This document shows positions 19,969 through 63,251 of a stretch of 64,000 nucleotides of DNA, piece after piece; positions within the stretch are counted from its first letter, which is position 1; every line of letters starts with the position of its first letter. The stretch is from Gracilaria domingensis (lineage: Eukaryota > Rhodophyta > Florideophyceae > Gracilariales > Gracilariaceae). The stretch covers positions 271,267 through 335,266 of the forward strand of contig VCMS01000025.1 of NCBI GenBank assembly GCA_022539475.1. The letters run 5' to 3'. The position numbers and the translations under genes were made by a program. Below the pieces are notes generated by a model, which was not told where the DNA came from, did no database searches, and saw only the letters and a program-made list of their open reading frames with translations.

Positions 19969-19984
19969 TCGAACCCAAACATTG

Positions 19985-22175: not shown

Positions 22176-22415
22176 GAATGCAGCACACACCCGGCGCCCG
22201 CCGGACCCGAACGACAGTGACCCCCATCAGGGCATCTGTTTTACAGAATGAGAACAAAAGGTGGCGCCTTCGCCAATCGACATCTCGTCAAAAGATTCTG
22301 CGCACCTCGCGCGACCAGCACGGCAACCCAGTCGTCACGTGCTCACTACTAGAAGCCCCCTTCCTTTGAACCAATCACCTCACAAGGACCTTACCACACA
22401 GCGCTACCGAAGCAA

Positions 22416-42900: not shown

Positions 42901-43600
42901 GGCTACATCAATGATGCTTCGTACCCCCAGAGAGGTGAATTGATGTCCATTTGATGTCCCTAAGATGACCGGCATTAAAATTACGAGATCTAAAGATGTC
43001 CACTTGATCTCCTTTAGATGTCCATATGATGCGCGTAAATGATCTACATATGATGCATCAAAGATAAACGACTGATAATCCCCCGATGCGCATATGATGT
43101 ACGAAGAGATGTCCAATGGATTCTGCGATGTCCAAGTGATACCCTTCAGATTCCGGGACATCCAATGGACATATTGTCGTGCATCATTTGAGTATCTTTG
43201 GAAGAGGTTTTGTGCATCCAAGGAATATCTAACGGACATCAATTAGGGACATCTTTCGTGCTATCTCTGCACATCATTGGGATATCGTGGATGCGCAGAA
43301 GATGTCCGAATGGTATTCCAAAGATGCCCCAAATTTTCATCCGATGGATATCCAACGCACATCACTTTTCCTCTCTGGGACCGAGATGGGGACGAAGAGA
43401 AGGATTTGGCCGAGATGGAGCCTTACCAAGGCCGCTTACCAAACATTATTACTCGACAGCTCTCCGAGCATCAAGCTACCACATTGGGTACACTCGCAAG
43501 CTATAGACTACTGTGGGTGACGGCTACAAGGCATATTCATGAACACGACGAACTGTACGTAGACTATGGTCCCAGCTATCCATGGGAGAGATATTTGTAA
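39970..43600 (+). pseudogene. Module gene (iv), copy A: DNA methyltransferase-SET fusion, frameshifted and MITE-interrupted
   Basis: From ATG 39970 the N-terminal half is broken by about four frame changes (near 40.24, 40.43, 40.71 and 41.4 kb). From 41.4 kb a single frame runs through the methyltransferase motifs: LTDPPYGI near 41.57 kb and VVVDPYSGTFSGA near 42.15 kb, which is closer to the canonical DPFxGSGT than copy B. It continues across CAA (42334-42336), where copy B has TAA, into the SET domain. The SET region is split by the insertion 42926-43379 and resumes to end with DELYVDYGPSYPWE at 43600. This continuous frame is the direct evidence that the two enzymes were made as one protein. 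Confidence 0.75.
42926..43379. mobile_element. 454-bp MITE-like insertion with inverted ends and 3-bp target duplication
   Basis: Starts CCCAGAGAGG and ends CCTCTCTGGG. The inverted similarity extends imperfectly for about 35 bases. It is flanked by the direct trinucleotide ACC (42923-42925 and 43380-43382). Module B provides the uninterrupted site in the SET domain. Inside are about ten copies of GATGTCC or GGACATC in both orientations. It is non-coding. A 3-bp duplication fits PIF/Harbinger- or CACTA-type transposases; no source transposase is visible here. Confidence 0.88.
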
Positions 43601-44002
43601 CTCTCCCATGCTTTATAGTTTGACGTATTACAAACTGTTGTAGTGTATTTCATGACTACAGCGTCATTTATTGAATGCATTCATCATTCCAGTAAACCTA
43701 TTCTTGCAGGAATCGACAACGTGGCACAAGGACGCATTGTCGTGCTAAGCAAAGAGCTACTAAGAATACTCCACAGCGATGAGAACTACCACCTCAAAAG
43801 TAACACCTCATAACTAACACCTCACCCCCAGGAGTTTGAACCAAGGAACAGAGGACCTTCATCATGAAGGCACCCGACAGAAGGACCTGGCACATAGAAC
43901 AAAAATACGGCAATGGGAAATGTGGAAAATTGGTATGAATGTCTGCCACAGGAAGGGACCAGCTCAATCAGGGCTCAAGAACCACTGGAGGTCTCCATCA
44001 AC
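43601..44002. other. Unassigned sequence left of the gap
   Basis: About 400 bases with no recognised gene. Module B at the equivalent place continues into gene (v), but no similarity was seen here. Confidence 0.4.
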
Positions 44003-44906: not shown

Positions 44907-45975
44907 TCTAGCGAGCAGTACAATAGGGCAGAAGAGGGCAAGACGGCGGCACTGTCCGAAGACACTTATCGACTCACGAAAAGAGACAGTGTCTTTTTCG
45001 GAGACACTGGCTCTCGACGGGATGCCGCGCCGCCATCAAGCGTCTTTGCAGCACTCTTGCCGCCGGCAAAAACACTGCAGAGTACATATATAACGCCTGC
45101 CTGCGCAGCCTCGATGCCCGCCTTTCTCTCTTTCCGTATGTCCGCTTCTTTCGCTAGCCTAATAAACTTCCCTTCACACCGAAGCGGTGACATCTTCATG
45201 GAGCCGAGCCCATAGCGTTTGAAATGGCAGAGCAAGCTCCGTCTCCCGACGCATGGCCAGGTGAACTCCAAACCTTTCAGACCTTGTGTAAGAAAAGAAA
45301 ACGTTGCGTAAAGACTATCAAGAGATCTGCTCGGAGCTTGTAGGCTTTAAAATGATGAGCGAAACCACCATGTTCGACCGTTGGCCCCACGTTTCCGTCG
45401 ATCACAGGGGGTTTTTCATGCGGTAGCCCAGCGCATTCTTGACAGAGCTCAGTGCCCGAGATCGTCGTTCGGCCAGGTAGTGAGAGTATATCAACGAAGC
45501 AGGCACATAGCTGGAAATGCAGCTTGCTACGTTGAAGCTGGGTCCCTCAGCAAATGATCCGGGCCAAAATGATTCGGTTTCGTTTCACAGCAAAGATTGC
45601 TGGCGAAGCCAGCCTTGACGTTTTGACGATGAGAACCCAGTGCTTCCGTGATATAACTGAAAATGGACTTGAGCTTGCAGGGACGACGTCTTTCCTCGTC
45701 GAGCAGAGCCACGACGCAGTCTTCTTCGAGACTCATAGGACATTCCGCAAAGCGCTATCATCCAGTTTAGAGATCGAAACCGCCAAGGAAATTGCGAGGA
45801 TGATGCTTAATCAGAAGGGATCCAGGAGCAAGAAAGCACCCAAAGACGGCGCACCCAGAAATTAGTAGTTCAAATGGCTTCCGCGCACAAAAAAGGCACT
45901 TGAATCTGCCCTTTTTGGCTCAAAACGTCCCGGAAAGCTGACCAATGGGTTAGCATTTTAGGTGCGTCTCATTTC
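44907..45975. other. Possible LTR and unassigned retroelement sequence
   Basis: The first 270 bases carry an LTR-like promoter/polyadenylation arrangement (ACATATATAA near 45085, then AATAAAC near 45165). A 103-codon open frame at 45554-45865 has no recognised domain. The start of an RT-like fragment lies immediately downstream. No matching second LTR is visible, possibly because of the gap. Confidence 0.3.
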
Positions 45976-46284: not shown

Positions 46285-46904
46285 TGTAGATTATACAATT
46301 CTTTATCCCCTTTTCCTTTCTTGTTCTCCACCTTCGGCTGAATTTCATCCTCTTCTACCCCCACACTCCTCGGTTGGATCGGTCTCTTCTCGTAAACCTT
46401 CCTCTTCAGACCTCTCTTCCTCACCAATTCTCCCTCCATCACCTCATCCGCCCCAAAACTACCCGTCGCCGGTACAAAGTCTCTCGCATCCTCGTCTTCG
46501 CTTCCGATGCACACTCCAACCCCAACGCCGTTCACGATCTTCGTCTTCGGCGCCGGAGTTACCGGCGTTCCCTCCACACCCCTACCCCGCTTTTCTTCCT
46601 CCCATTCACCTCCTTCGAGCTCCCCTCCAGATTCTCAAAGCGTTTCATCATCTTCTTCTGCTCCTCTTTCATCCCCCTCAGTTCCCTTACCACGAACCCT
46701 GTCACCTTCTTCGTCAGTCGACCCACCTCCTCTCCCATGCGCGTCCCCATCGCTCCGGCACACCCAGCACTGCAGTGGCCCACCAGTCCAGCTCGTCCTT
46801 TTCTTCCTCCTCCTCGAACACACTCTTTAACTTCTTGTGCGACCGTACCCTTCGTCCCACTCCCACGGCCACCTAATGTTCGAACGCGAATCGTCATCGC
46901 TCAT
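46285..46904 (-). pseudogene. Module gene (i), copy B: small coiled-coil protein, truncated and frameshifted
   Basis: ATG at 46904 opens a short frame (MSDDDSRSN...) aligned to copy A. The homology then moves through two other frames: GCAGAMGTRMGEEVGRLTKK at 46.8-46.6 kb, then the Val/Gly repeat and basic region below 46577. It breaks at the retroelement fragment, so the very basic C-terminus seen in copy A is missing. Function unknown. Confidence 0.5.
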
Positions 46905-47544
46905 GGTCGCGTTGGTAGAAGATCTGGTAGAAGAGCAAAAGGGATATCGAAAGAAGAGAAATCAGGGAAGCCGAAAAGAACAGAACTCGCTGATCGTTCC
47001 TTCGCAAACCGAGCACGGTGTACCAAGGGTAGACGCTTTCGTCCCATGACACTGTAGTACCGCAGCACCCGCTCATATCCGTCCAACCTCTGCATCGCAA
47101 TTATTTTCATATTTACTAGCACAATTCTTCACTTTTGAACACTCTCTATGCTTCTCATTCTCCATGTTCTCCCAAGCGTTGCGAGAAGGGCGTCCCTTTT
47201 CATACATGGTTCATGCCAGTAGTATGTGAAATGAAATCCTACCACTACCATCATATCATGATTCTTCCGTCCTCTTCATCGCCCTACATTTTACTCTTCA
47301 TGTACTCCGTCTCTTCATAGCTTTTCCATCACAGAAGCTAAGTTCGCCACTCGTTTATGAACACCTTCTTCACTTCAAATTTACAAGCCTTAAAGGAAAC
47401 AAAACATAGATATAGCTCCTTCGATACACCTCTTTATAGGTAATATCTGCTCGTTTCGTTCTCAATAAATATATCTTCTCCTCGCCCCTTCTTTCTTCAT
47501 TTCTTCTCCTCTTTCCTACCTACTCACAGGCAGCAGAGCTCACA

Positions 47545-48746
47545 ATGGCCTTCCAAAACACCCACAAGGTATCGCATGTACAGCTTCGCAACCAAACTGC
47601 TCTCATACCTATCCATCTCAACGCATTTCCCCATAGGACATACATCACCTTTGACGACTGCCTTCAACTGAAGTACGACGTTGACACCGGGCAAGCCACG
47701 GTTCGAGGAGTCCAGACCCTTTTATCCCCCGAACTGCTGGATGAACTCAGTGATGTTTATGACATACTTCACGAAGTTTCAATTCATGACCGAATCCTTG
47801 AACATCCTCCCTTCTTCCACACAATTGGGAATCTTTCAGAGCTACCCAACTACATGTCAGAGGCTCGGTCTTATTCACATAATCCCTGAACATGCTCTCG
47901 CTATCCTCTCTCTTGGCATTCTCCCTCTTCGTTTCAGTAGCCATAGGAGCTCTCTATGGGATTATAAAGCCTCTCACAACACACGCTCTTCTCTACGATC
48001 GCTCCTCCCGCCAAACACAACTGGGATTCACTATCCTGTACAGCATGCTCGAAACTATGTTTCACATTATTCTGTTTGAATTGGCATTCTCTTTTCACGC
48101 CACAAGGTATGGTAGACTCGCATATGATCCAATGACTCCGTCGCACACATCCAGCACCGTTTCGGCACTGAGGAATAAATACCTCGGCATGGGCATCGGT
48201 GGGCTTATCGTCCTCAACCTCTCTATCTTCGTCACTTATCAGCTCCGTCCTCCTCCAATCGATGTCATGGATTCTCTCAAAACTGCATGTATTTCCTTCT
48301 TCCCCGGCGGTTTCTTCTTCGGCTTCTTCACCATTCTCATCAACACATTTGGGATCTATTTCTCTACAAAACATACGTTCAGCAACATAGTTCCGCTCTC
48401 CAATCGGGTGATATACCGGAGAAGAGGGCTAAATCCGTACTGCCGTTGTATTCTAAACTCGTTCCGGAAAGCTTTGTTCCTTCAGGATTTCCTGCTTTCT
48501 ATCAGACTTTTTCTGAACAGAGTGGTCCCAGTTTTCTTCGCACACACACTCTCCGAGTCTTTGGACCCCGAATCCTTTGGTTCGTACAGAGGTATCCCGC
48601 CCCTCCTCATAAACACCTTGTTCATTGTACTACTTGTATGCTCCGGAGTCGTCAAACACGCACCAAGAATCAACGCAAAGCGATACTTGTGCGCCATTGG
48701 TGAGCACCCTAGACCCCCGACACAACATCTACTGCCTTTTGGGTGA
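47545..48746 (+). pseudogene. Module gene (ii), copy B: polytopic membrane protein with one frame break
   Basis: Two open frames (47545-47889 and 47892-48746) correspond to one protein in copy A. A one-base change near 47888 ends the first at TGA. The first part is soluble (AFPHRTYITFDDC, ILEHPPF). The second has about five or six membrane segments, including SVAIGALYGIIKP, LGMGIGGLIVLNLSIFV and ISFFPGGFFFGFFTIL. It ends in a conserved RIPP-like tail (EHPRPPTQH). No transporter or receptor signature is recognised. The shared N-terminal region suggests a receptor-like or membrane-anchored partner of the module, but that is a guess. Confidence 0.55.
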
Positions 48747-49023
48747 CGTATTCATCAAGTGCGAGACAAGTACTATACGAACATAAGTACATAACTGATA
48801 CATGTTTCAACTAAACAGAATCTCTTCTCTACAAACATAGTTCCCACATATTCATGACGCTCTCCAGGATTGAAGTGTTTGGTATGGTATCCTATCCTAC
48901 CCTTCAATCTTGGATAGAGTCGTCGCTTCCACAATTCTTAAACTTTCTCTCGATTCACAAGATCATTTACTTCGAAACTATATTCGACACATAGGTTACT
49001 ACAAAGTTTCATCACATATTCAC

Positions 49024-49302
49024 TCAGTCCTCTTCGCCATCCTCAAGATCGTTTTCAATCTCCTCCACTTCATAATTCTCATCTTCGTCATCTTCTTCAT
49101 ACTGTTCTTCCCCTTCCTCTACTATCACCTCATCATTCTCCTCCTCCAAATTCGACGGTTCTGGATTCTTCCTCTTCTCCTTCATACTAACCAGGTCTTC
49201 ATCCTCCTTGAACTGAGGTCGAAAGTGTGGGTTAAGATGTACCGCATCCGGGAGGTTGTATTTCTCAGGTACCATGTACATGTGGTAACGAAACAAGGGA
49301 AT
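49024..49302 (-). CDS. Module gene (iii), copy B: C-terminal acidic segment beyond the TAG
   Basis: In the same frame as the oxygenase-like ORF and separated from it only by TAG 49303-49305. It begins with the conserved LFRYHMYMVPEKY segment, where the Arg could be the oxygenase's 2-oxoglutarate-binding residue, and ends in an Asp/Glu-rich tail of about 60 residues. In copy A the region is continuous with the oxygenase (a GAA codon at the TAG position). There is no ATG at the junction itself; the first Met is at 49296. It would be translated only by readthrough or from that Met. Confidence 0.5.
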   Translation of the reverse strand: MPLFRYHMYMVPEKYNLPDAVHLNPHFRPQFKEDEDLVSMKEKRKNPEPSNLEEENDEVIVEEGEEQYEEDDEDENYEVEEIENDLEDGEED

Positions 49303-50805
49303 CTAGGGGAATCTTCCATCCTCATTTGAAGCGCCTGCATGGAACACATCACCTCTTTCAATAAATATAGACTTAGGCGGAACGAAAAACTTCCTCACAA
49401 ACATCCCCCGTGCCAAACCTTCAAATGCCTTGGGAGTAACTGCGTAGTGTGTATGAGACCCTTCACATACCCAAATTGGAAACGACACAATTCCGGACAC
49501 CATCATAAAGTACCCCGGGTTCTTCTTTTCTTCCAGCTTATCCTCATTCGCCAAGGTCGGGAAATCCGTATGTAACTGCTGCCGCTTGCATCCAACTGCA
49601 GTGCATAACACCCTCCCCCCCGTCTTCGGCGCATACATCCTCTCCTTTTCCACCCTATTATCTTGTAAACCCATTAAAGCACATATCTGTCCCAGTCGGG
49701 CATCCAGTAAAGCTCTCTTCTTCACAAGCACATGTCTTTCTACGGCTGCCTCCATGTCATCCACTATGCCTCTTCTCGTAGTCATGTACCTCCCACCATC
49801 TGCGTTGATGATCGGTATCCATGTGATTCGGTTCTCTGGTATCCTAAGGTCTGGAGCCCTCTCGAAGTCCCTTCGGAAGAAGTCCAGTAATTCCACACTA
49901 ACATCCCCGTCAATGAGCTTGCTCAAACTCTCTGTCAGCTTCACCAACTCTCCATCCGATGCAAAGCCGTCCAGAATACAGAAACCTCTCTCTCGAAGCT
50001 CGACGTTCTTCTTCACAAAATAGACATACGCAAGAGAGTCGTTCTTCAGTTCATCCCCCCATAACGTCTTCTCGTCGACCTCCATGCCTCCCATTGCCGC
50101 GTTCAGGAGTTTATGGCCATGATACGATGCATGCCAAAAGACTGCATGGTGCACACTTTCAAAGTCCTTGGGCTCCAACAAGTGGCCTCGGTGTTGCTTC
50201 TGGATATGTATCGCATCCATCCACGGGTACACAGATTTAATGACATTCTCCACTCCAGTCGGCCACTTGCTTGGTAAGGTCTTCACCAACTTTAGCCACG
50301 AATCGTCACCTTCATATGCTACTTCTTCAGCCTTCTTCTGACCTCGCGCCAACACCTGCGGTACTGTGTCATCGAACGGGTCAGTGTCCTCTGCCTGTGA
50401 GAGCACAATTGGTACTCCATCTGAGTCTGTGTCGCTGCCGATGGATATCTGATGACTTTTCAACAAGTTTCTCACCCCCTTCGCACCAAGACTCCGCAGA
50501 TGACTGATAACTTCATCCTGAACAGATTGAATACCCTCCGTCCTTGACTTCTTCCGTTGATTAGGGTTCACGTCTCTCATTGAATTCCTTCGTCGACGGC
50601 TTCGTCTTGAACTCCTCATGCTTCTTGTCTTCGATGGCATATTCTCTTCACTTTCTACATCAGAGTCCTTAGAGCCCTTGCGCACTGGCGCTTTGGCCTT
50701 CCTACTTGCCGAACGTGTGGCCATTCTCTGCGTTGTAGACTCGTCTACCGCTTTGGTCTCAGACTGTGGTTCAGTCGGAGTAGTACCAGTGGCAGGTTTC
50801 AACAT
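49303..50805 (-). CDS. Module gene (iii), copy B: 2-oxoglutarate/Fe(II) oxygenase-like segment
   Basis: 500 residues from ATG 50805, in the same frame as the ParB-like ORF and 12 codons after its TGA. The N-terminal 170 residues are basic, Ser/Arg-rich and probably DNA-binding or disordered. A globular domain follows. Near its end the HxD motif is QLHTDF (about residues 410-415), a CEGSH segment lies between, and the distal His is in GDVFHAGAS (about 485-490). An Arg comes shortly after (DGRF or, past the TAG, LFR). This HxD...H...R layout is that of 2-oxoglutarate-dependent dioxygenases (PhyH, AlkB, TET/JBP and others); the subfamily is not determinable by eye. A role as DNA or histone demethylase/hydroxylase is attractive but inferred. 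Confidence 0.5.
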   Translation of the reverse strand: MLKPATGTTPTEPQSETKAVDESTTQRMATRSASRKAKAPVRKGSKDSDVESEENMPSKTRSMRSSRRSRRRRNSMRDVNPNQRKKSRTEGIQSVQDEVISHLRSLGAKGVRNLLKSHQISIGSDTDSDGVPIVLSQAEDTDPFDDTVPQVLARGQKKAEEVAYEGDDSWLKLVKTLPSKWPTGVENVIKSVYPWMDAIHIQKQHRGHLLEPKDFESVHHAVFWHASYHGHKLLNAAMGGMEVDEKTLWGDELKNDSLAYVYFVKKNVELRERGFCILDGFASDGELVKLTESLSKLIDGDVSVELLDFFRRDFERAPDLRIPENRITWIPIINADGGRYMTTRRGIVDDMEAAVERHVLVKKRALLDARLGQICALMGLQDNRVEKERMYAPKTGGRVLCTAVGCKRQQLHTDFPTLANEDKLEEKKNPGYFMMVSGIVSFPIWVCEGSHTHYAVTPKAFEGLARGMFVRKFFVPPKSIFIERGDVFHAGASNEDGRFP

Positions 50806-50844
50806 ATCCAGCCCTAAACTCTTTGCCAGCTTATCACGAGCAAT

Positions 50845-52872
50845 TCAGACTCTTCTCGAAATCCTTCCTTCCCAGAGCTTCTTATTCGAAGGTACTTCAA
50901 TTCGTGCTGCCTGTGTTGCAAGGTACTCACGAACGATGCGCATTTCAAACTTTGTTACTTCCACCTTCATGGCATACGCTTCTTCCAATGTAACTTTCTT
51001 CTTCTTCGAAAGCTCCTCTGCCAAAGATTGAAGCCTCCTGCAGCAGATAAAGAAGTATTTGCGTACGTCTTCAAAACGACCCGTCAGTTTCGACACTCGC
51101 CTCCTGGAAAAGTATGCAACCAGAGCGTCGAGCGTGAAGTGGGTTGTATGCTCATCCATGGCAAAGAATTCATCACTTGATATACAAGAAATTCCAATCT
51201 CATGGTAGTCCCCACAAATCCGCTCCAAATGTTCCAGCAATCCAGGACTTCTCGCCACTTTCAACCCCATCTCTGCAAATCTTGCCAAATGCTTGATATT
51301 GTACTGGCCAATGATACCGCAAACACTTAGTGCACCTGCGACAGAGGTCCTCGTCATCTTGCTCAAGTCTTTCTTCTCTTCCTCAACCAGGACCCTTATA
51401 AATGACACAATAGAATGCACCTTGTCAGCAAAACCCATAAGACGAGCTTGCTTCAATCCATCGTTTAGCACATTGCCAAGGCTCAAGATTTCCCTCGTGG
51501 TCATCTTCTGTCCATCTTTTCTCTTCCACAGCGAAACAGAAAGACCTCGACATAGATTCCTAATGTTGGGCATAGATTCACAGAGCTCTTTGAGTGCTAC
51601 ATGACGATGAGCTCCATCAATCAGCATACAATTCACTTTCAAGCGATTGTTCTGCACTATGTCCTTCTCGGACACATCCTGAGACAGAACAGCAACGCTC
51701 ATTGTCCCAAGTGCCTGTAAGAAGCTTTTGCGTCCAATCTCTTCTTTCAGAGCCTCGACATGATTCCGGAACAACCCTCTCACAGTCATTTCCGGAACTT
51801 GAATGAGCTCAATATCGACTTGAACAGACACATACTCGTAATGATCTAAGTCAAATACCAAACTCGCTAAACTCGTATCGACATCATCAGGAGGTATCAC
51901 ATCACCTTCATCAAAGAGTTCATTGACGTTGCTTCCAAGGCTTTCCTTCACTAGAACCACGTCTTCGTCTTCGTCTTCATCCACGTCAATCACTTCCATT
52001 GTCACTCCACTGCGATTTCCAGCCTGAGTAATAGCTTCCGCAGTGCTGTTCCTCGACGCTCCAGACTGCACAATCGTAGCAGTTTGTTTACGAAATGCCG
52101 ATACAGCACTCTCTGGGGTCGTGGTCATCTTGAATTCTTGCGTCTGCTTTCCACCACCGTGAACGTTCGATGGTGTTTTCAGCTTTGGTACTGGCGCTTG
52201 TTTCCCGCCTTGGGGTTTTTTAGCATTCGACGGGGTTTTCACATGAGCCACTTTCATCTGCATTCGCTTTCGGGCACTGGATGGAGTTTTAGGTTCTACC
52301 ACTCGCACCCGTTTCCCAGCAGTATTCGATGGCTTCTCAGGGGCGACGAGTTTGGAACTCGGAGCACCCTTGTCTCCTTCATCAGCGCTTACGACGTCAC
52401 CCACCTTAGACATTAAGTTCAGGTCCCAGGCGTAGAAACCGGGCCTGTTCATGTCCTTCAATGTCTTCGGAACAGAATCTTCATCGGTACACTTAAAGGG
52501 ATAGGGATAGGGAGTGTCAAGCTCATGAGATATCTTCGCTCGCCATATACCAACTACATCTTCCCCTGGTTTTCCCTGCAGAGCATGTCCATGCATTTCC
52601 CTTCTGAACGTTGTCTTCCCTCCACCAGCGTCCACTTCAACGAGAACAGCTTTCCCAATCGCTGCTTTGTTCCCTCCTGCCCCTCCCAACAACAAGGTCA
52701 CTTCTTCGCCTGGTGCGGGCTTCGACTTCATAGCTGTGGATGCGTTCCCCGTCGCTGCGTTCGGTTCAGCAGTTCTGGTCCCGCTCCGAAGTTGTGGTGC
52801 CATGGTTCGTCGAGGCTTTCTCACCTTTCGAGAGCGTCTCATTTGACCCTTTCCCAGTCCTCTCATATCCAT
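50845..52872 (-). CDS. Module gene (iii), copy B: ParB/sulfiredoxin-fold-like protein
   Basis: 675 residues from ATG 52872. That start is preferred because copy A has the same MxxRGLG beginning; the frame extends upstream only from GTG. The basic N-terminus (MRRSRKVRKPRR) is followed by a domain with PFKCTDED, a Lys/Pro-rich repeat-like linker (repeated KTPSNAKK/KTPSSARK), and a SUMO-interaction-like tract, VIDVDEDEDEDVV. Then comes a ParB/Srx-like domain at about residues 345-430: a DIELIQVP strand, a helix, and the signature LIDGAHRHVALKEL, equivalent to the ParB 'DGxHRxxA' motif. A helical C-terminal half of about 250 residues follows. It ends at TGA 50845-50847, where copy A has a sense codon. 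Confidence 0.6.
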   Translation of the reverse strand: MDMRGLGKGQMRRSRKVRKPRRTMAPQLRSGTRTAEPNAATGNASTAMKSKPAPGEEVTLLLGGAGGNKAAIGKAVLVEVDAGGGKTTFRREMHGHALQGKPGEDVVGIWRAKISHELDTPYPYPFKCTDEDSVPKTLKDMNRPGFYAWDLNLMSKVGDVVSADEGDKGAPSSKLVAPEKPSNTAGKRVRVVEPKTPSSARKRMQMKVAHVKTPSNAKKPQGGKQAPVPKLKTPSNVHGGGKQTQEFKMTTTPESAVSAFRKQTATIVQSGASRNSTAEAITQAGNRSGVTMEVIDVDEDEDEDVVLVKESLGSNVNELFDEGDVIPPDDVDTSLASLVFDLDHYEYVSVQVDIELIQVPEMTVRGLFRNHVEALKEEIGRKSFLQALGTMSVAVLSQDVSEKDIVQNNRLKVNCMLIDGAHRHVALKELCESMPNIRNLCRGLSVSLWKRKDGQKMTTREILSLGNVLNDGLKQARLMGFADKVHSIVSFIRVLVEEEKKDLSKMTRTSVAGALSVCGIIGQYNIKHLARFAEMGLKVARSPGLLEHLERICGDYHEIGISCISSDEFFAMDEHTTHFTLDALVAYFSRRRVSKLTGRFEDVRKYFFICCRRLQSLAEELSKKKKVTLEEAYAMKVEVTKFEMRIVREYLATQAARIEVPSNKKLWEGRISRRV

Positions 52873-53122
52873 TATATGGTGCCAGTGTGTGTGATATACA
52901 CGAGTCCTGGTGTTCTTCAAATCGTACGTTTGCTCCCGTGAAGTTGCAACCGCTCGTGTTCGAATCTCCGCCCTTTCTCGCGTGAGCACAATGGACGCAA
53001 CCACTCACGTTCAAAACGGCTGCAATGCACACGTGAGCAGTGTGGGTACAGTTCCTGATGGTTATAAATGGTTGGATCAATGTCTGATTCCGTCCTGGTT
53101 GACCACTGTCCCCGCCTTTCAT

Positions 53123-53258
53123 CATCTTTGAACATCGCCCGAGCGCCGTGTGGGAACCGCGGTTCGCCGAGTTCATAGCCGAGATCATAGCTATGATCTC
53201 GGCTATGAACTCGGCGAACCGCGGTTCCCACACCGCGCTCGGGCGATGTTCAAAGATG
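53123..53258. repeat. 136-bp near-perfect palindrome between divergent genes (iii) and (iv)
   Basis: Two 68-base arms (53123-53190 and 53191-53258) are exact reverse complements apart from one mismatched position. Centre ATAGCTAT, outer ends CATCTTTG and CAAAGATG. It sits about 250 bases from the start of (iii) and 280 from the start of (iv). It could extrude a cruciform. It may be an origin, a partition or ParB-like-protein binding site, or a transcriptional insulator; none of these is shown by sequence. Confidence 0.95.
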
Positions 53259-53538
53259 TACGAACCCAGTGTTTTCTACGTTGGTTTTACATACTAGACA
53301 TATAATGCACTGCACATACTGAGGTGCCCCACCGGTTTGATGTGTTTAGATCCCACTCTCGTCTATCTATTTCATTACCCGCTCAGTTCTCGGTAATCCG
53401 TCGCAACCGCGCTCTCCACCATTGTTTCCGACGCTTCCCGACGTTTCCGACGCTTCCCACCCATTTAAACATCTCCGAAACTTCTACCGTTTCACAATAC
53501 TCGTTTACTTCCCGTCCTTTCCGATTCTCAGTTCTTAC

Positions 53539-55899
53539 ATGGCGTCCACCGGAAATGACGCTCCTCGGACTGTTAAGCAGAGTGTGCTGGCCGATGAGAA
53601 CCACGGCACGGTATCCTCTGGCGCGTCCTCTAGCGCGTCGTTCGATTCAGCCAGCATGGCAACGCGTTTCTTGAAATGTTGGGGGTTGTTCATTGAGTTG
53701 CGAGATGCGTATGCCGCTTCAAGAAGTGGTACTGGTAATCCGCGTGAAGTTGGGTACACGGAAGTTGTGGAATACGCTGTATCAAACCGTGAACACCTGG
53801 CATGTGCACGAGAGTTCATCACCACTGCGGTCAAGGGTCCTTTCCAAAACTACTCCGCAAAAGAAGTCACGAAGATCTGTCTGGACGTGCGTTTTCTGAG
53901 CAGGGTCTACAAATATACGCGTATCACTGATCTAGACGACGAGAATTCTGATCGGCGCGTGAGAGATTTGTTTACCTGGAGTCTTGAAAAGAATGTAGAC
54001 AACGGTAACTCGTTCATAGAACGGGCTTTCTGGAATGACCTTTTGAAACGACATGGTCCAGGCAGTAAGCAGACGAAGAGAACTAAGTTCAGGATTGGGC
54101 CTCCCACTCGTTTTCAGCAGTTACTCTATCTCTCTTTCGTGAAGCATATAACTACGGAGAGAAATCTCCCAGCGGCGAAGAGAGGAAAGACCGGGAAGGG
54201 AACCCATAGAGCTGTGCAGTTCGTCGACGGCTACATAGCTTCGAATGAGACGCACGGGAGACGGATGGCACATGCAGTGCAAACGATTTGTAAGGGATGG
54301 GATTTCTTTGCCTCAACCTTAGGCTTTGGTGATGGTGAGCAGATGTTGCTGCCATACCTGCTTGTAGAAAAGAAGTCGCTTGCGTTCCATGTCATTGAAT
54401 CCCGCTCTGTTGGGTACAGTCCGGAGTCAGCTTTTCATACGTTGGGGGAAGAACTGAAACCCACGTTGGATGTGAACGACACCGTTTCTTGGGTTCATAC
54501 TCTTCCGGATACTATCGACGCCAACTTACGGGAGTTGGCAAAGGAATTCTTGGCAGATTTCAGCAAGATTGTGTTGAATGGCTTCCTATACAAAATGTCC
54601 CCAACGTCAAGATGGAATTTGTTGGAAAGCTTCAGACCTGGCCGCCCCGCACGAGTACCACCCCGTTTCAATGTATTCTCCAAAGAGTACATGTCTTCTA
54701 TTCGTCAAGCGATGTCTGTACATAACCTCCAACCATCTCGACTTATCCTTAGGGGCGCTCCTTCAGGGCAGGATGGAGGAAGTAATACCTTCACGGTTAA
54801 GGTTGAGGACTCGATACAGATTCCGAGCTCCTCCAAGAGGAACGCCGCAGGGAAAAGCTCAGTTAACTCCGATGTCATCGTCATCCTCGATAGCGACAAT
54901 GAAGAAGGTGATACACCTGGTGCCTCTGTTGGGGCGAAAGATAACGTTCCAGATGGGGTTCTCCCCCCTCATGACTTTGATGACACGCGCACGTTAAATG
55001 CTCTAGATGTGGTGCGAGGAAGCATGGAGAAGCAATTCTCAATGCATTGTGTCGGATATGACGAACTGGTGGCGGCCCATGGTACTATCTTCCCATCGGA
55101 TACATCTTTGGAAGGCAACGTTCAGTTCGTGCTCACAGACCCACCATATGGCATCCGCGACAGCGAGTACGACGAATTGGCTGACGATGATATGGACAAT
55201 ACTGCGGACATCATGGCATCCATGCTTCGACCAGGAGGACATTTCGTTTTGTTCTGCAGTATCGACCAGTTTGGAGACTGGGAAGAGATTTTGCGAGAGC
55301 ACAAGTCGGAGGACGCAAGCGGAAAGAAAACCGCATCATTCTTAGTGGATTCGACGCCCATGAACTTCATTCGTTCTCGTTCGAACCCCTTGAAGAACCC
55401 TGCGCGTAATACTACTCGCCTGTTTCGGGCGACGGAGTACGCCGTGCATGGCATGAGGAATGGAAACCCGTACGCGGAACAGAAGGTAATGGTGAACTAT
55501 CAGAACTTCAACTACGTTTCAGCTCGCTATCCTGGGCACTATTCTATCATTGACCAGGTTCCAAATCTTACGCCTGGGGAGAGTCTCCGATGGAGAGTGA
55601 AGAGTGGTAGAAAAATTCGAACCGCGAAGGCTCGTCCAGAACAAAAGTCGAGGCAACTACTGATGGAGCTGATAGCGAGGTTCTCGAATCCCGGGGATGT
55701 TGTGGTTGATCTCTACTCCGGGAAGTTCTCGTGCGCGCTGGAATGTATGGATATTGAGGGGCCTCGGCGTTTCATTGGATGTGAGCAAGATGAGCAGTGT
55801 TTCTCTCATGCCAAGCACAATGCTATTGTGCATTACGCAAGAAAAGTGTGGCGCAATGAATTGAAGATGAAAGAACCGGTTACGAATGAGGTAGTTTAA
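53539..55899 (+). CDS. Module gene (iv), copy B: amino-group DNA methyltransferase (N6A or N4C) protein
   Basis: 786 residues from ATG 53539 (MAS...); the frame is open upstream only from TTG. Residues 1-60 are Ser-rich. Residues about 60-420 form a conserved domain of unknown family (RFQQLLYLSFVKHITTER, VSWVHTLPD). A linker follows with a SUMO-acceptor-like VKVEDS and a SUMO-interaction-like DVIVILDSDNEE near residue 445. The methyltransferase domain has motif IV first (LTDPPYGI, Asp at about 534) and the SAM-binding motif I last (GDVVVDLYSGKFS, about 720-730). This order is that of the beta class. DPPY favours adenine-N6. In motif I the usual Pro and central Gly are altered, unlike copy A, so activity is uncertain. 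Ends at TAA 55897-55899. Confidence 0.75.
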   Translation: MASTGNDAPRTVKQSVLADENHGTVSSGASSSASFDSASMATRFLKCWGLFIELRDAYAASRSGTGNPREVGYTEVVEYAVSNREHLACAREFITTAVKGPFQNYSAKEVTKICLDVRFLSRVYKYTRITDLDDENSDRRVRDLFTWSLEKNVDNGNSFIERAFWNDLLKRHGPGSKQTKRTKFRIGPPTRFQQLLYLSFVKHITTERNLPAAKRGKTGKGTHRAVQFVDGYIASNETHGRRMAHAVQTICKGWDFFASTLGFGDGEQMLLPYLLVEKKSLAFHVIESRSVGYSPESAFHTLGEELKPTLDVNDTVSWVHTLPDTIDANLRELAKEFLADFSKIVLNGFLYKMSPTSRWNLLESFRPGRPARVPPRFNVFSKEYMSSIRQAMSVHNLQPSRLILRGAPSGQDGGSNTFTVKVEDSIQIPSSSKRNAAGKSSVNSDVIVILDSDNEEGDTPGASVGAKDNVPDGVLPPHDFDDTRTLNALDVVRGSMEKQFSMHCVGYDELVAAHGTIFPSDTSLEGNVQFVLTDPPYGIRDSEYDELADDDMDNTADIMASMLRPGGHFVLFCSIDQFGDWEEILREHKSEDASGKKTASFLVDSTPMNFIRSRSNPLKNPARNTTRLFRATEYAVHGMRNGNPYAEQKVMVNYQNFNYVSARYPGHYSIIDQVPNLTPGESLRWRVKSGRKIRTAKARPEQKSRQLLMELIARFSNPGDVVVDLYSGKFSCALECMDIEGPRRFIGCEQDEQCFSHAKHNAIVHYARKVWRNELKMKEPVTNEVV

Positions 55900-56706
55900 G
55901 CGTCTTATGTGGTGGATGCCAAATTTTCTGAACGGAAACGAAAGACTTCGACTATATGGAATGCACCCAAGGGATTCCCATCGTACCAATCTTTCCCATT
56001 CCATATCATGTCGTACCCATCCACCTATTGGAATGAACCTGGTCTTATCACTACGTACAAAGAGAAACCGTTCCATGAGTGGCCACTTGCCTTACAAGGG
56101 AAGATGAGTACGTTGGACAGTCACACTTTACTCTCTGTCGAGGCGACATCGCTATGGCTCTATGTGAAGAAGTCGAATATCAAACATGCAGCAAGTGGAA
56201 ATGGAGTATTTACGAGTAGGGCATTTTCCGAAGGGGAGGTTATTGGATACTTTTATGGGACCTTGGTGTATCATGATCTAAGCCGACGCAATACCACACA
56301 TTTGACGTATGGAGACGGAATGCTGGGGGCAACTGCATCTCGGTTCAGGAAGTATTGCATGCAAGTGAGGGTGAAGGGGCAAATGTACAACACTCTCCCG
56401 CATTATGATACTGAAGTCAACGCTGGTCATGCCTGGATAGTTCCTGCTCCTTTCTGTGTAACGGGCTATATCAATGACGCGTCATATCGTGAAGGTGATG
56501 AGGACAAGGAATTGGAAGAAATGGATTCTAACATGGCACGCAAAACAAATGTATTCATTCGCCAGCCCACAGAGTATCAGGCTACAACTTTGGGGCTTTT
56601 GGAGAACTACAGACTCCTCGTAGTCACGGCCTCAAGGGACATTAAGGAGCATGACGAAATTTACGTTGACTATGGACCCACATATCCTTGGGAAAGGTTA
56701 ACCTAG
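55900..56706 (+). CDS. Module gene (iv), copy B: SET-domain segment downstream of the TAA
   Basis: 268 codons in the same frame as the methyltransferase and separated from it only by TAA. Its first ATG is about 35 codons in. Copy A has CAA at the TAA position and reads straight through, so this is the C-terminal half of a fusion. SET hallmarks are GNGVFTSRAFSEGEVIGYFYG (in two parts, the GxG strand-turn), YINDASY at the usual 'NH' position, and DEIYVDYGPTYPWE, the 'ELxxDYG' end. Post-SET cysteines are absent. SET enzymes methylate histone or other protein lysines. Translation here requires readthrough, reinitiation or a different allele. Confidence 0.75.
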   Translation, partial: ASYVVDAKFSERKRKTSTIWNAPKGFPSYQSFPFHIMSYPSTYWNEPGLITTYKEKPFHEWPLALQGKMSTLDSHTLLSVEATSLWLYVKKSNIKHAASGNGVFTSRAFSEGEVIGYFYGTLVYHDLSRRNTTHLTYGDGMLGATASRFRKYCMQVRVKGQMYNTLPHYDTEVNAGHAWIVPAPFCVTGYINDASYREGDEDKELEEMDSNMARKTNVFIRQPTEYQATTLGLLENYRLLVVTASRDIKEHDEIYVDYGPTYPWERLT

Positions 56707-57170
56707 GTTCTCAGACAATGTCCTTGAACTTCGTATGGGCTCAATGTAGTGAGAAAAGCTTTTTGTTGAAGTAAATTGTATTGAACACTTCTGCTATGAT
56801 TGCAGACATACTACTCATATGTACACTCAAGCTGTACTGTGTAACATATTGATGCATATAGTGGTATGAAAGATCGTTGAAAGTGCCGTACTTGTATATG
56901 CAGGGCGCAACATCCGGGAAAATCGGACCAAGTCCGGAATATGGACCCGGGAAAGGTCCAAAACTTGAATGCCGATCCGCCACAAATGCTGCAGAATGCT
57001 TTCCTCCATATATGCAGTACGAGGTTAAATTCCCCTCCCCGTCACATATCAGTTCCGCATACCGAGTACGTGACCCTCACATATCACTCTCAATCATATA
57101 CCTTCAGTATCGTTCACGTTTCTATATCCGTTCCGTAATACTACCGCGCACGAAGGCCGAAGGATCTCGG
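56707..57170. other. Spacer between genes (iv) and (v)
   Basis: Probably the 3' end of (iv) and the promoter of (v). The (v) reading frame is open from 56877, but without a well-placed ATG before 57171. Confidence 0.4.
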
Positions 57171-59705
57171 ATGGCTTCTCAACGTGCGGAGCATGCAGGT
57201 GGTAAACCGCGAAAGGCATCGGTACCGCCGGAGCGCTGGGATACTGGGGTGGCCAAACGTAGGAGCGCGGTCGTGTCACGAAGTAGTGCTACTAATGGGA
57301 GAGGTAGCCGAGGCCGAGCACCTCGTGCTGGACTTCGCAAACCAAAATCTTCATCTACAGTATCGGAAGTAAAACCGAGAAGGAGGTCAGGAGCTTCCAC
57401 ATGCACTACGGAACGCACAGTAAGTGAAACCGTTCAAGCCAAGGATAGTGCAATGCGTGGGCCTGTTACACGCCACATGGCTGCAATGGAAGAGCCAAGG
57501 GTCAGTGATGATGGAAATGTAGATATCAAAGCGATGAAAGGAAATAAGAGAAGAACGGCTGTACGTCAGAATGTAAGGAGGACAAGAGGCAGTGGAGGAA
57601 CAGAAGGTCCTCGTATCGATGATTGTTTCGACAAGGTGAGAACTGCGGATGACAATGCGGAGATGGAAACCGTGGATTGCGCCATCGTGAGAGCCGAACC
57701 TAGAGCCGAACCTGGGGATAGGGAGATACCCAAAAGCGCTGCCGGAACAGAACGTAACAGTTATGATTCGAGAAAAGTGAAGAGGAACGAGAAAATGAAT
57801 GAGGGTGTCTCTCGTGCCAAGAAAGGCAATGGCAGAAAGGAGCGGGAGTCCACGGACGCAGTAGATATCCCAAGTGACGTCGAGGACAAGGATAACGTGG
57901 AGGCGAACGACAACGTGGACGGCGGAAATGCAACGCATATGGCTCCCATCGAAGGCAGGCATGATTCCGTCCCTCATATTGGGTCCAGACACAAGGAAGA
58001 CGAAGACGAAGACGAGATAAACCGACACCAGTCACAGGTGAGTCACAGAGAAACAGGTTCAATCAGGTCAGAAGAAGGACGAACCATGGAAATGAGAATA
58101 GACGGGTGGGGAACGATCGGCAACCTGTCATAGCAAACGCCCGTAGAGAAGTATGGAACGATAAAGATGTTGATCGTGGTGCTTTGTCACGGAGCTTTTC
58201 CCTGCATGGTGCAATGGAAGAAGATGAAGATGAATCCTTACTCCGCGATACGAGCTTTTGGAAAAGATCCTGAAACTGAAGGGAGATCTGTATCGTACAA
58301 TAGAGGACAAGCAAAGTCTGAAAATGAGCGTACGACTTGCTCAGAAGAACATAGAGCAACTGGAGGTTAAGGTCAGAGAACAAGAGGTTCTCATACACTC
58401 TTTGAGAGAGGCTCTCAGACGTGGAGGGAAAAGGAACGAACGTGACAGTAACAAGAGCAGGAAGCGGTACAACATTGACGTGAACGACGAGTTTGTTGGT
58501 GTTGCGAAGACCGTCTATGACTCCATACTTCAATACGCCAAAGACGAGACAAGAGAGCTATGCTTCGAGATGAGTATACCAGCAAGGAACTGGGGCAACC
58601 GAAGTGAGACAGTTGGACCTGAGAAAGACGACAGTGTGCTGGTTGTTGATGGGAAGGAGATAGTGCCACGGTGCCCAATGGATCTTGCCATGGAGATGAG
58701 GGCGTACACGCCATCCGTACGTGGTGGAGGCGACCATTTGTTGATGCAAATTGTGGAGACGGAGGTAATGAAGCCACGTTGGGAATCTATCCGAGGAATG
58801 AAATGGAAGATGACTGTGTGAAACAGTTAACGCACGACATTTGTTTGCGCAGAAGGTTGAAACAGGCTTTAAGTGATGCAATAGGTGTTCGAAAACGCCA
58901 TGCGAAGGAGAAGTTATTGATGGGACTAGGTTACGACATGCTTGTAAGGACCCCGATAAAAATGATGAAAGGGAGCAGAACAAGTATGAAATCAAACCAG
59001 AGAGGTACGTGAAAAACTCCTACCCGAAGATGCAAATGGATGTGAGATTCTGTCGTCGTGGAGAACTCAGAAGGTAGAAGATATATGTTTCTCGGGCTTT
59101 AACCCATATCATGCAACCGAAGATGAACCATGTGACTTGCTTTTTCGGAACAGCCTGAGCTTGGAGGTGCTGCGTGAGTTCATGGGCTACGACGTTTTAC
59201 AAACAAGTTCGAGGAATACCGAAGAGAGGGATCCAGTGGACGGAACAATCATGCATCTGGCACGTCTTGATGCCTGGATAGCGTCCGTTGTTCGCGCGAC
59301 AGAGTCTGAACGAGGGAGAGGTGGTAAGAGACAAGTGTTGTTCTCCAACTTGTTCGGGAAATATCTACCACTGGCACTTGAGAGTATACTGAAGACCGTG
59401 AGGGTCCGCATGCAGCAGAGTTATCCAACAGAGTTCAGAAATGGCCATCGAATGCTGAAGATGCGCCGCATGGAAATGATGACCGGGTGGGCACTGTGGT
59501 TTACTGGATTCCGTCGAAAAGGAAAATGTACCTTGCTGTCCGAGAAGATGTGTTTATGGGAGAGATCTCTGAGAAGCTCGGAGCTGTACTGGATTGCTAT
59601 GTTAGATGCTGCAGTCGGGGAGACCGTATGTTCTACGACATAACTGCAGAGAGGGATGTGAGGGAAGGTCTGTGCAAGAAGGATTACATGAGGGGAATTG
59701 GATAG
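57171..59705 (+). pseudogene. Module gene (v), copy B: basic, coiled-coil protein, frameshifted
   Basis: ATG 57171 opens 320 residues of strongly basic, Ser/Arg/Gly-rich and then acidic low-complexity protein (stop at 58133). Coding character continues in other frames: an acidic block near 58.2 kb, a coiled coil from 58258 (repeated Lys/Glu heptads, NIEQLEVKVREQEVLIHSL), an alpha-helical region to 59012, and a globular-looking region 59137-59643 (LSLEVLREFMGYD). A last frame ends at 59705 (KKDYMRGIG). At least four frame breaks. No family recognised. It may be a structural or chromatin-associated protein of the module. No counterpart was found beside module A, where the assembly gap intervenes. 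Confidence 0.45.
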
Positions 59706-62457
59706 AACGTCACTAATGCATTATGGTTTACGTTACGAAAGTTTGGTGATTGGATAGTAGTGTAAACGAGCTCGGGGATTGCGATAGAATCTGTTAATGT
59801 AGAATCGGTGGAACTTCCAGTGCAATGTAGGGAAAAGGGGCGTGCGGGATAGTTTTGTCGGAGGATGTGTACCGAGCCTTTGATCGAAGAGAATGGGACG
59901 AGACCGAACCATGGGAATACAGATGCAGTTGTTGACCGTTTTAGAGAATTGGAGGTTTGCAATGTGTGATCTTCCTCGTCATTCGTGGCCCAGCGGAGGG
60001 AAATGCAGTTCAAGGATTCGTCAATGTTATCCAACGGCTCCGTTACCTCGAAGAAGCGAACAAAGGCAAATTCAGAATCGGAATTGCTTTGGTTACATCT
60101 GCTAAAGCGAACCAGGGCAAAGACTTTGCATACCCATGCGGTCGGGAAGTCACAACCGGGAGGAGGAGTTCCATTAACCAGGACGGTAGAGAATTTTGGG
60201 GACTTGGAAGGGCCGAAAGAAGTGGTTGCAAAAATACGTTCACACAAAGAGACCTCCGGCTCTCGCAGTCTAATGCATTGAAAGTGACGATCGTAGTCAT
60301 CCAGCGAGGGGCAGAATCCAGAAACAATGTAAGCGGAATTAACGACGGTGATTTTGATGTCATGGGGGTTGTCCAACGGTTGAAGAGTTTCTAAGCTTAG
60401 GGTACGGAAGGAAGAGAGGGCGTCGCGAGAGATTTGTTGATGAACTGCAATGTAGTTCTGGAGAACAAATCTGTGAGAGCAGATGACGGGACGTTTGGAT
60501 GGGACCGTAGATACTTGTCGGCCGTGATGATGTCGAAGAGGGAGAATGAACTACCATCACGAACCATGGAGGGACACCGCTGCGACAAACGACTGGCCGA
60601 GTTGGTAGACATGGAGAAGTGTTTCCTTACCGAGATGGAGTGTAAGAAATCCTGCGACTCTTGGATTGAGTCCACTGTTTCCTTATGCGCAGTTGATCTT
60701 CTGCGAGAGGTACGGCGGTAGTGGTTCTTGAACAGGGATGCGCGTGCTCGTACACACCTGCATCACCGAAATGGAGGCCTCCGTATCGACGGATGTCTGG
60801 AATGATATGATCCAGAAGATGGAATTTGAGAGTACGAAAGTTGGAGGCCTGGTATGGACCCCAAACTGAGACAGTTTGAGTCTTGAAGTTCTTGATGAGA
60901 GTCTCCAAAGAGCGTAAGCGATCATCAGTCCATTCTGGGCAGTGTGGTTGTGAAAGAACGTTATTCGACCGAATGACGTTAAGAGATGAAAATGGTGGTT
61001 ATTGGGCGGGAGATACACTTCACGCAGCAACGGTCGACAGAATGCACCGATGAAGGGGGAAGACCATGTCGAGGGCGGATAGTTCTTTGCTTCTAGCATG
61101 CCTCTGATTCCGTAGTGGTGAGAAGCGTTGAGAGACTTACCCATTTCAGATGATCAGAGAAAATATATGAAGTCCTGGAGCAGAACGAGCCGTTCGATGT
61201 CAGCTTAGGATGGAGTTGGCGTGCACCGTTTAAGAATAGAATGTTCTGATGGATCCGAACGTGACTGGAGGATCCATTGAAGCCCAACGGAAGTGTGAAA
61301 GAGAGTCGGACTTCAGGCGTTCGATGGGCGAGTTTGATGAGTTTAGAGATGCCAAGGTGAAAGTTGTGAAGGGCTCGAAGGAGAAGATTGAATAGGGTGG
61401 CAGTGAGAGATGTTTGAGAGACGGGTAACGATTCCAGAAGGATTGTAGGAGAGAGAGAGGTGGTAGTGAGAAGTTCTGCAGCTTCTCTTTGAGGTTCCTT
61501 GCAACCCAGTAGTCTATGGAGAGGAGAGCAGAATCTGCCTCGAGGAAGTAGGTCTCATGTCTTTTTCTGTTTGCAAGTGTGTTAGAGGGTTCGCTCTGGT
61601 GAGAGTAGGTTGGTAGAGTTTGAGTTTTGAAACGAGGGAGGAGACCACCGTGGCAGGGTTGCTTGGCTTGTGCATGGAAGTTCTGCGAAATGTCCTGGCT
61701 TGCGGGGTGTCAGCGCTGTAGTTGGAGATGAACTGGATGGCAATTTTTTTTTTTTGACGAAGGACTCCTTTGGCGTCGCGGAAAGGGAAAACCCTTCATA
61801 CGATGATGATACAGAGGTTTTGAGGATGGTTTCTGGGCTCCTGGCGAGCTGCCATGCGCCAATGCGGGTCAACGCTGGGGGGTGAGGGAGCGGACTTCCA
61901 GGACTGTGTCAAGTGGAGGACGAGTCGGAAGTGAAGGGATGTGGGTATGGTATCCGAGAGTGTTAAGGTTTTACGTGATGCACTTTCTGCGGAAGGAGTC
62001 ATTTGAAATTGAGGAGGGTGAATGGTGAAGAGGAATCGACGTAACAGAAGAACTTTTCAAAAGAGGTGGAAGATTGTCTGAATATCGTTGAACGAGAGAG
62101 GAGAACGAGTCGATAGAGAGAGATAGATATAGAGAGATAGTGCCAAATAGAGATAAGGGGTCCGAAAAGAAAGCATGATAATGCCACTCTTGATAGTCGG
62201 CAGCCCGACATGGCGGCCTGAGTTCCGAAGCCATAGGGTGTGCGATTGCGTAGTTCTGTTCTTTGAAGCTTGGTTTGACTGGATGAAGAGGAGTTGCTGG
62301 TGGGATGAAGCGAAGTTGTTGTAGGAGAACGCTGAACGGAGTCCCTGAGGTAGAGGGTGGCGGGAAGTTCATGGTTTTTGTCATGCGATGATGGTTGAGG
62401 TGAAACCCCAATGGAGCTGACTGTTTTTCGAAGAATTTGGGAGTGCAGTTTCAGCAT
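59684..62457 (-). pseudogene. Large DDE-transposon-like gene (Plavaka/KDZ/CACTA-like), fragmented
   Basis: Minus-strand segments follow one another in changing frames. A stretch with FEPFHNFHLGISKLI lies near 61.35 kb. A NFRTLKFHLLDHIIPDIRRY segment near 60.8 kb is followed by an acidic 'VYEHAH' element typical of the 3' part of large transposase ORFs. A final 230-residue frame (60376-59684) has FALVRF, FAFVRFFEV and FSSIKGSVHILRQN, like the C-terminal domain of Tnp2/KDZ-type proteins. Many breaks. Family placement is tentative. It ends tail to tail with module gene (v), overlapping by 22 bases. Confidence 0.45.
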
Positions 62458-63251
62458 TGCAGCGGAGTGTATTGGAGGTCTCGGAAGAGGAAGAGGGAAA
62501 GGTGATTGCTTGAGAATGCTTGATAAGCTGTCAGCATAGAAAAAAAAACCGCTTACCCGGTTTTGTGGGAATGGAGGATATGTTAAGGTGACGAGGGTAT
62601 GGATTTGGTCTTTGTGTAGGGTGAAGAAGGATAAGGCCGTTACATGCAGCCTGTGGAAGGAGACTGGGAAGGCGAGTTGGTAGATGCGCCGGCTGAGTAT
62701 CTGTGCTGCGTCGGATGAGCGTAGGGAGAGGCAAGCTGTTGTTCTGCGACGGATAAGGGTCGTCGTCTGCGAATGCTACGTTATCGGCCGGGCGGTTAGA
62801 AGGGGGAAGGAGGGGGTTCGGTGTTGTTTGACGTCCTGCGGCGCGCATTGTTTCGGGAGGGAAGCTGGGACTCCTTATGAGGTTGTTGGGGTGGAGAATC
62901 GGGGTTTGGGTCAGTCCTGTTCCGTGCTCGCTCTGATGCTGGGCGGAGAGGCGAGGGACTGTGTATGGAATGAGCAGCGGGGCAACAAGTTGTGCAATGG
63001 CTGGGTGAGGGGTTGAAAGTAGTGGGGAAGTTTGCTTGCGAGGGATGGTCGGTGGTGATGGTGCGGCGCAGAATCTTGGAGCACCTGCGGGGAAGAGTAT
63101 AAGTGCTGTTTTACGCACCATCCCTATGAAAGTGATTCTGGACATACATAAGGGCAAAAATGTGCCTAATTTCTGTCAAAAAATAATATGCGTACTGTTT
63201 GTCCAATGGATGAGCACGGGGCTGTGGGGCAGGAATCGCCATCAAAATTAA
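62458..63251. other. Proline/serine-rich open stretch, possible 5' part of the preceding gene
   Basis: On the minus strand 63157-62531 is open and would encode a Pro/Ser/Thr-rich polypeptide. This could be the disordered N-terminus of the transposon gene at 59.7-62.5 kb, or chance. Nothing else was recognised. Confidence 0.25.

Follow-up and report, generated by a model that had tools for sequence, protein, structure and literature searches.

A DNA amino-methyltransferase-SET fusion carried by a Plavaka-type transposon of the red alga Gracilaria domingensis: a putative dual writer of DNA and protein marks

Which chromatin-modifying enzymes travel with transposons? Passages of PMC12730594 describe transposons that carry SET or TET/JBP genes, and parts of PMC5890265 describe transposons that carry DNA methyltransferases. 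According to the former, fungal Plavaka elements produce 2- or 3-bp target site duplications (TSDs) and have the termini TGT..ACA (PlavakaA) or CATCA..TGATG (PlavakaB). The bdelloid enzyme N4CMT makes N4-methylcytosine (4mC) and silences transposons (excerpts of PMC8885841). Here we analyze a stretch of 64,000 nucleotides from Gracilaria domingensis (GenBank assembly GCA_022539475.1, contig VCMS01000025.1, positions 271,267 to 335,266, forward strand), hereafter the window, which contains two damaged copies, A and B, of a gene that joins a DNA amino-methyltransferase to a SET domain. We conclude with high confidence that this fusion gene is cargo of a cut-and-paste DNA transposon of approximately 20 kb with a Plavaka-type transposase.

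How does this element compare with the described systems? Like the fungal Plavaka elements that carry TET/JBP genes, it combines a Plavaka transposase domain, 2-bp TSDs and terminal inverted repeats (TIRs) with a cargo gene for an epigenetic-type enzyme. Unlike them, it resides in a red alga, its termini begin CGTCTGTG where the fungal elements have TGT or CATCA, and its cargo consists of the methyltransferase-SET fusion and a ParB-like/oxygenase-like gene, with no recognised TET/JBP (comparison with the Plavaka passages of PMC12730594). Because the TSDs fit but the termini differ, we place the element in the Plavaka superfamily and in neither fungal lineage. The HarbingerS and MuDR transposons of Phytophthora also carry a SET gene on a DNA transposon, but they use another transposase, and the passage of PMC12730594 that treats them mentions no DNA methyltransferase fusion. 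Retrotransposons with DNA methyltransferases, including DIRS elements with Dam-like adenine methyltransferases, are likewise mobile carriers of such enzymes but belong to a different element class, and the term "SET domain" is not in the retrieved text of PMC5890265. The Plavaka-flanked giant repeats of Amoebidium resemble the present element in their large, intron-poor gene clusters, some with red-algal matches, but the cargo named in the corresponding section of PMC11244446 is tyrosine recombinases. Finally, N4CMT is a host gene with a chromodomain, a reader, whereas the gene described here is transposon cargo with a SET domain, a potential writer (PMC8885841, in part). In the titles and abstracts of the open-access literature that we searched, we found no description of a DNA amino-methyltransferase-SET fusion. 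A first-pass annotation of the window had known of no described family with this architecture; its claim holds for that literature, but a homologous gene of Chondrus crispus had already been annotated as a DNA methyltransferase.

The intact fusion is encoded by neither window copy. In copy B, a forward frame is open from 53350 to 55899, with an ATG at 53539 and a single TAA at 55897-55899 separating the methyltransferase half from the SET half, which continues in the same frame. In copy A, one forward frame carries LTDPPYGI and VVVDPYSGTFSG and then enters a SET region that aligns to that of copy B (repeat D2); the frame is lost inside this region, and Pfam finds no SET domain in copy A. Self-comparison of the window shows that the two copies belong to a diverged direct repeat with an offset of approximately 13.5 kb. 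Both arrangements had been read correctly in the first-pass annotation, including that of copy A, which lies outside the interval to which the annotation was attached. A run of N at 43975-44907 lies inside or beside copy A.

Intact forms were found elsewhere in the genome. A 583-amino-acid query against 77.9 Mb gave at least 85 fusion matches, which merge into at least 74 places; the fusion scan scored 75 of 845 candidates and the transposase scan 42 of 1,566, so all copy numbers given here are lower bounds. Essentially the whole query is spanned by 24 own-genome matches, the window copy among them, nine of which have no stop in that segment (counting matches that start at residue 1 or 2 and reach at least 581, and leaving out a C127 row that is 62% identical over 3-583 with 10 TGA). 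Six copies of the type represented by copy L004 are stop-free in the query segment, and at least four of them are frameshifted in the N-terminal part. L004 contains an uninterrupted fusion open reading frame (ORF) of 1,055 codons, encoding 1,055 amino acids, in which Pfam recognizes both N6_N4_Mtase (55.2 bits, cut-off 26.7) and SET (28.4 bits, cut-off 22.4; E 2.3e-06), and no chromodomain at E 10. In 17 of the 20 copies fetched, the codon at the position of the copy B TAA is a sense codon; the three with a stop are the window copy and its two 100% matches. Because of these 17 sense codons, we attribute the split of copy B to decay of that copy and its duplicates and not to the way in which the family is built. 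The remaining copies carry N-terminal frameshifts or stops at other positions, some of which may be assembly errors.

A second subfamily, represented by the C157 copy, permits a test of constraint. Over 1,024 codons, L004 and C157 are identical at 65% of residues. The proportions of nonsynonymous (pN) and synonymous (pS) differences are 0.145 and 0.770 in the methyltransferase part (258 codons) and 0.164 and 0.660 in the SET part (190 codons); pN and pS are given instead of the corresponding rates, dN/dS, since most regions gave a saturated or undefined dS. These values indicate, at the level of sequence, that both halves have been maintained as protein during evolution.

The fusion also recurs well beyond this genome. 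A protein search returned 35 diverged relatives with 27-43% identity, 33 of which cover at least 82% of the 566-residue query region, and one of which, from Chondrus crispus, is named "adenine specific DNA methyltransferase". In an alignment of 36 proteins, N6_N4_Mtase is found in all 36 and SET in 30 at E 0.01, a proportion that is neither a frequency of fusion nor a census of stand-alone enzymes because the search took only proteins of similar length and its query held both domains. Residues D534, P536, D724 and G728 are invariant in all 36 proteins. In the SET part, N979 is present in 31 and Y1045 in 29 of the 36, the rest having gaps or other residues, and N1004 is present in 35, including a chance match in P0035. 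P0035 and P0034, a partial protein that ends before SET, are the two relatives that have no SET part in the alignment. P0034 is filed under a Bacteroidota metagenome-assembled genome and perhaps derives from a contaminant algal contig. The first-pass annotation had allowed that the profiles might support neither domain or that intact homologues might always be separate genes; instead, the profiles support both domains, and the homologues are not always separate, P0034 and P0035 notwithstanding.

The assignment of the methyltransferase to the beta class, also made in the first-pass annotation, agrees with the order of its motifs, a DPPY-type motif IV ahead of the S-adenosylmethionine motif (DxxxG), and with its matching fold. 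A structure search fitted the predicted fusion model to CcrM, and the methyltransferase has the same fold and motif order as the beta-class N6-adenine methyltransferases CcrM, M1.HpyAVI and MboIIA, which to our knowledge are bacterial and have no SET domain. Structure prediction bore out the methyltransferase half, which occupies the structure lists for the full-length model. In a profile search of the PDB, the family profile matches the SET domains of KMT5A and KMT2C. Taken together, the profiles and models predict a single chain that starts with a helical N-terminal region, continues with a beta-class DNA amino-methyltransferase of bacterial type and ends in a SET domain. In prokaryotes and viruses, among the matches listed (80 viral_contigs and 68 genome_contigs loci, found with patterns derived from the methyltransferase), no best segment extends beyond residue 797, the end of the methyltransferase region, and as far as these loci go we set aside a prokaryotic or viral source of the whole fusion.

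What is the evidence that the gene is transposon cargo, a status that the first-pass annotation overlooked, together with the ParB-like neighbour and the conserved palindrome discussed below? Homology between copy B and other genomic copies breaks exactly at 46299 in L026, L027, L033 and L039 and exactly at 63120 in L021, L023, L025, L029, L031 and L034. These fetched copies run past the two points and finish in TIRs, and the termini on both sides begin CGTCTGTGTTTCC. With at most three mismatches allowed, pattern searches for the termini located 40 ends of the left type and 49 of the right type; a reversed control pattern found none. The C12 copy occupies 65379-85355 (19,977 bp), and the length of left-right pairs on one contig varies, with 16,938 bp on C277 as an example. 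A 2-bp TSD is present in five of the eight insertions for which both flanks were read (C120, C281, C277, C161 and C96). Near the right end of the C12 copy, an uninterrupted frame of 1,110 codons matches Pfam Plavaka (PF18759) with E 6.1e-24 (85.3 bits, gathering threshold 26.3) on L021:3478-6804. The fusion gene lies within 12 kb and in the expected orientation at 23 of the 42 scored transposase places. The sole Pfam match of the coiled-coil-like cargo protein is sub-threshold (DUF7603, E 0.0026). Near the left end of the element, L039:1894-3198 (forward strand) is an open frame of 435 codons with several hydrophobic stretches, whose window counterpart at 47883-48746 has no Pfam match.

Divergent from the fusion gene lies a second gene whose L039 counterpart is open over 1,071 codons. 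We tentatively call its N-terminal region ParB-like on the basis of structure-search rows below significance and a motif read by eye, and its C-terminal region oxygenase-like on the basis of motifs, namely HTDF and later His/Arg motifs, also read by eye. P0026, a relative of the fusion, carries a ParB-like motif (by eye) towards the N-terminus of the chain that also contains the methyltransferase; on this protein Pfam reports the methyltransferase, a sub-threshold SET and nothing else. Elsewhere, P0036, a relative of the neighbour, and P0002, a relative of the fusion, are each listed with four contigs, the longest of 20,528 bases in both cases, and so probably lie on the same contig. The linkage is not obligatory, because P0040, a relative of the oxygenase-like part, matched 84 of 84 scored places (738 candidates) with 92-99% identity over its main part. 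Two other relatives of this part match the genome: FGB62_128g110 at 99% over residues 85-509 (contig 128) and FGB62_382g03 at 100% over residues 329-699 (contig 382). P0040-like proteins constitute a second high-copy family with an oxygenase-like domain in this genome, and one P0040-related frame, L044:1324-1893, adjoins the left end of the C12 copy, a probable nested insertion.

In the window, a palindrome lies in the intergenic region of the divergent gene pair; a script scan of the 64 kb for arms of at least 18 and spacers no longer than 4 found no other. Other copies have two palindromes of approximately 96 nt within a longer inverted repeat, and palindromes occur in this intergenic region in eight of 11 sequences scanned. 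When the intergenic regions of the two subfamilies are compared by blastn at E 0.01, the palindrome repeat is the only stretch that aligns (approximately 60 bp at 92% with the C231 copy; pieces of 30-33 bp at 93-94% with the C157 copy). The genome contains 237 occurrences of the half-site and none of its reversed control. Of 37 half-site clusters (100 listed sites), 34 are near a fusion gene or a left terminus and three fit neither when all 85 fusion matches and the terminus direction are used: 24 are no more than 4 kb upstream of a fusion gene and 25 no more than 12 kb inside a left terminus, zones that together make up less than 1% of the genome. The total of 34 is unchanged with 46 of the 85 fusion matches and the terminus direction ignored. 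At the C22 locus, three palindromes (arms of 28-50 nt) lie at L030:8511-8815, beyond the segment that aligns with the window.

Table 1. Features of the fusion gene and its transposon in the window (window coordinates).
Feature	Position	Strand	Details and basis
Copy B fusion ORF, first half	53539..55899	+	helical N-terminal region and amino-methyltransferase, closed by TAA; Pfam N6_N4_Mtase E 4.6e-14
Copy B N6_N4_Mtase domain	55120..55815	+	residues 528-759; DPPY motif ahead of DxxxG, the beta-class order
Copy B second half, SET-containing	55900..56706	+	reading frame; same frame as first half
Copy B SET domain	56197..56676	+	Pfam SET E 7.3e-07; residues 100-259 of 268
Copy A methyltransferase and part of SET region	41344..42954	+	single frame of 536 codons; N6_N4_Mtase E 6.6e-11
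Copy A frame with part of the fusion's N-terminal region	40521..41498	+	by-eye likeness to N-terminal region of copy B and C157 frame
Copy B of the element, stretch in common with other genomic copies	46299..63120	+	both native termini absent in window copy
Plavaka transposase gene region, broken in window copy	59684..63107 (limits approximate)	-	window 63120-56546 aligns to L021:3462-9999
TIR-like terminus, probably left end of copy A	32224..32251	+	start CGTCTGTGTTCTCGTTTTGCTAGTTAG also at terminus-like site L037:852
Charged, coiled-coil-like cargo protein frame	56862..58133	+	counterpart open over 556 codons, L021:7849-9516
Palindrome between divergent genes	53117..53264	.	74-nt arms, no spacer; candidate operator or parS-like site
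Divergent gene, ParB-like N-terminal and oxygenase-like C-terminal region	49303..53004	-	split by stop into 50845-53004 and 49303-50844
Copy A counterpart of the divergent gene	35957..38233	-	broken into several frames; ORF reading

Other elements are present in the window. A hAT transposase frame lies at 6883-9306 on the forward strand (Dimer_Tnp_hAT E 5.1e-07, DUF659 E 1.6e-16). Long inverted repeats at 12105-12370 (142 nt at 94%) and 17778-18042 (124 nt at 98%), approximately 5.4 kb apart, border another element, within which the reverse-strand frame 15633-16793 has no Pfam match at E 0.001. At 19953-23351 (forward strand), two long frames resemble by eye a DIRS-type reverse transcriptase and a tyrosine recombinase; they too have no Pfam match at E 0.001.

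What might the fusion do for the transposon? Starting from the observed architecture, its conservation and constraint, the mobile-element context and the conserved palindrome, we infer the following scheme for DNA methylation, lysine methylation, targeting and purpose. The ParB-like neighbour product, or a complex of both products, would recognize the palindromes of the element. The fusion enzyme would add N6-methyladenine (6mA) or, with lower likelihood, 4mC to element DNA, and its SET half may methylate lysine residues, either of neighbouring nucleosomes or of one of the element's proteins. These marks would keep the copies of the element recognisable and expressible despite host silencing, and the oxygenase-like part of the neighbour may modify or remove the methyl mark. 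That the fusion is a transposon-cargo dual writer that marks the chromatin of its own element is the reading toward which we lean, with modest confidence. Whether both halves are catalytic, so that the protein is a putative dual writer, seems to us an evenly balanced question. The full mechanism, including palindrome targeting and escape from silencing, is less likely than not to hold as a whole, and its most specific form, in which a ParB-like clamp loads on the palindromes, spreads and recruits a single-chain dual writer to give the transposon its own epigenetic identity, is rather doubtful.

A number of observations weigh against this scheme or its parts. The TSD is missing in three of the eight insertions (C12, C140 and C233), although C12 and C233 have one left flank in common, which points to rearrangement or assembly, and at 19 of the 42 scored transposase places a fusion gene in the expected geometry was not found. 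Among the 11 scanned sequences, L033 and L038, the latter being the C157 copy, have no such palindrome, and in the C157 copy the palindrome arms are separated by 50 nt. Copies within one subfamily are non-independent; the footprint seen in the comparison of subfamilies carries more weight. For the neighbour protein, the four best Foldseek rows are ParB/Noc but non-significant (E 0.07-0.15, probability 0.72-0.89), and Pfam finds no ParB domain; for its C-terminal part, neither Pfam, in which we looked for a 2-oxoglutarate (2OG) domain, nor a PDB profile search gave an identification, and the AlphaFold model is of low confidence (mean predicted local distance difference test score, pLDDT, 45). 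The composition of the protein family reflects a search by length with a two-domain query, as noted above. The SET sequence of L004 alone reaches E 0.16 at best against the SET domains of the PDB. Moreover, in canonical SET domains a His follows the Asn equivalent to N979, forming an Asn-His motif; in this family the Asn is present but Asp replaces the His in 31 of 36 proteins, and the canonical motif is absent. The proposal in the first-pass annotation that one polypeptide could lay down a DNA mark and a protein mark thus survives in part: both domains are present in one chain with both halves under constraint, and with its altered Asn-His motif the SET half is a candidate histone writer.

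This substitution also leads to an alternative that we consider unlikely, namely that the SET half is a non-catalytic reader or scaffold and the DNA methyltransferase alone is active. The modest SET scores (E 2.3e-06 in L004) and the six of 36 members that have no SET at E 0.01 point in the same direction, but N979, N1004 and Y1045 are retained in most members and pN lies far under pS in the SET part. Far less credible, indeed extremely improbable, is that two unrelated genes merely abut, as the single TAA in the window copy and its two 100% matches would suggest; uninterrupted ORFs exist, the fusion recurs in distant homologues, and two separate genes were ruled out by the sense codon at the stop position in 17 of 20 fetched copies.

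Other alternatives accept an active fusion and differ in its purpose. The main functional rival of the anti-silencing reading is self-restraint, in which the fusion would write repressive marks on its own copies and so curb copy number or expression, in the manner of bdelloid N4CMT. We judge it quite unlikely: according to sections of PMC12695648, the eukaryotic 6mA made by AMT1 accompanies permissive chromatin and H3K4me3, and for transposon TET genes Kojima argues for escape from silencing (passages of PMC12730594). It is improbable, in our view, that the methyltransferase and then the oxygenase-like protein act on one base, shielding the transposon DNA by hypermodification, with SET confined to a regulatory role, for example through modification of an element protein. 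The two genes adjoin in two subfamilies, P0002 and P0036 probably lie on one contig elsewhere (20,528 bases), and transposon-borne TET/JBP genes are known (PMC12730594, in part), but the oxygenase call comes from motifs and the many P0040-like places show that its linkage to the fusion is not obligatory.

The terms "red alga" and "rhodophy" do not occur in the retrieved text of a 2025 survey of eukaryotic 6mA (PMC12695648), and the fusion is a candidate enzyme for 6mA or 4mC in red algae. DNA and histone marks are usually joined through reader proteins; a methyltransferase-SET chain would couple both directly. The element described here makes it testable whether a transposon brings with it its own epigenetic identity system.

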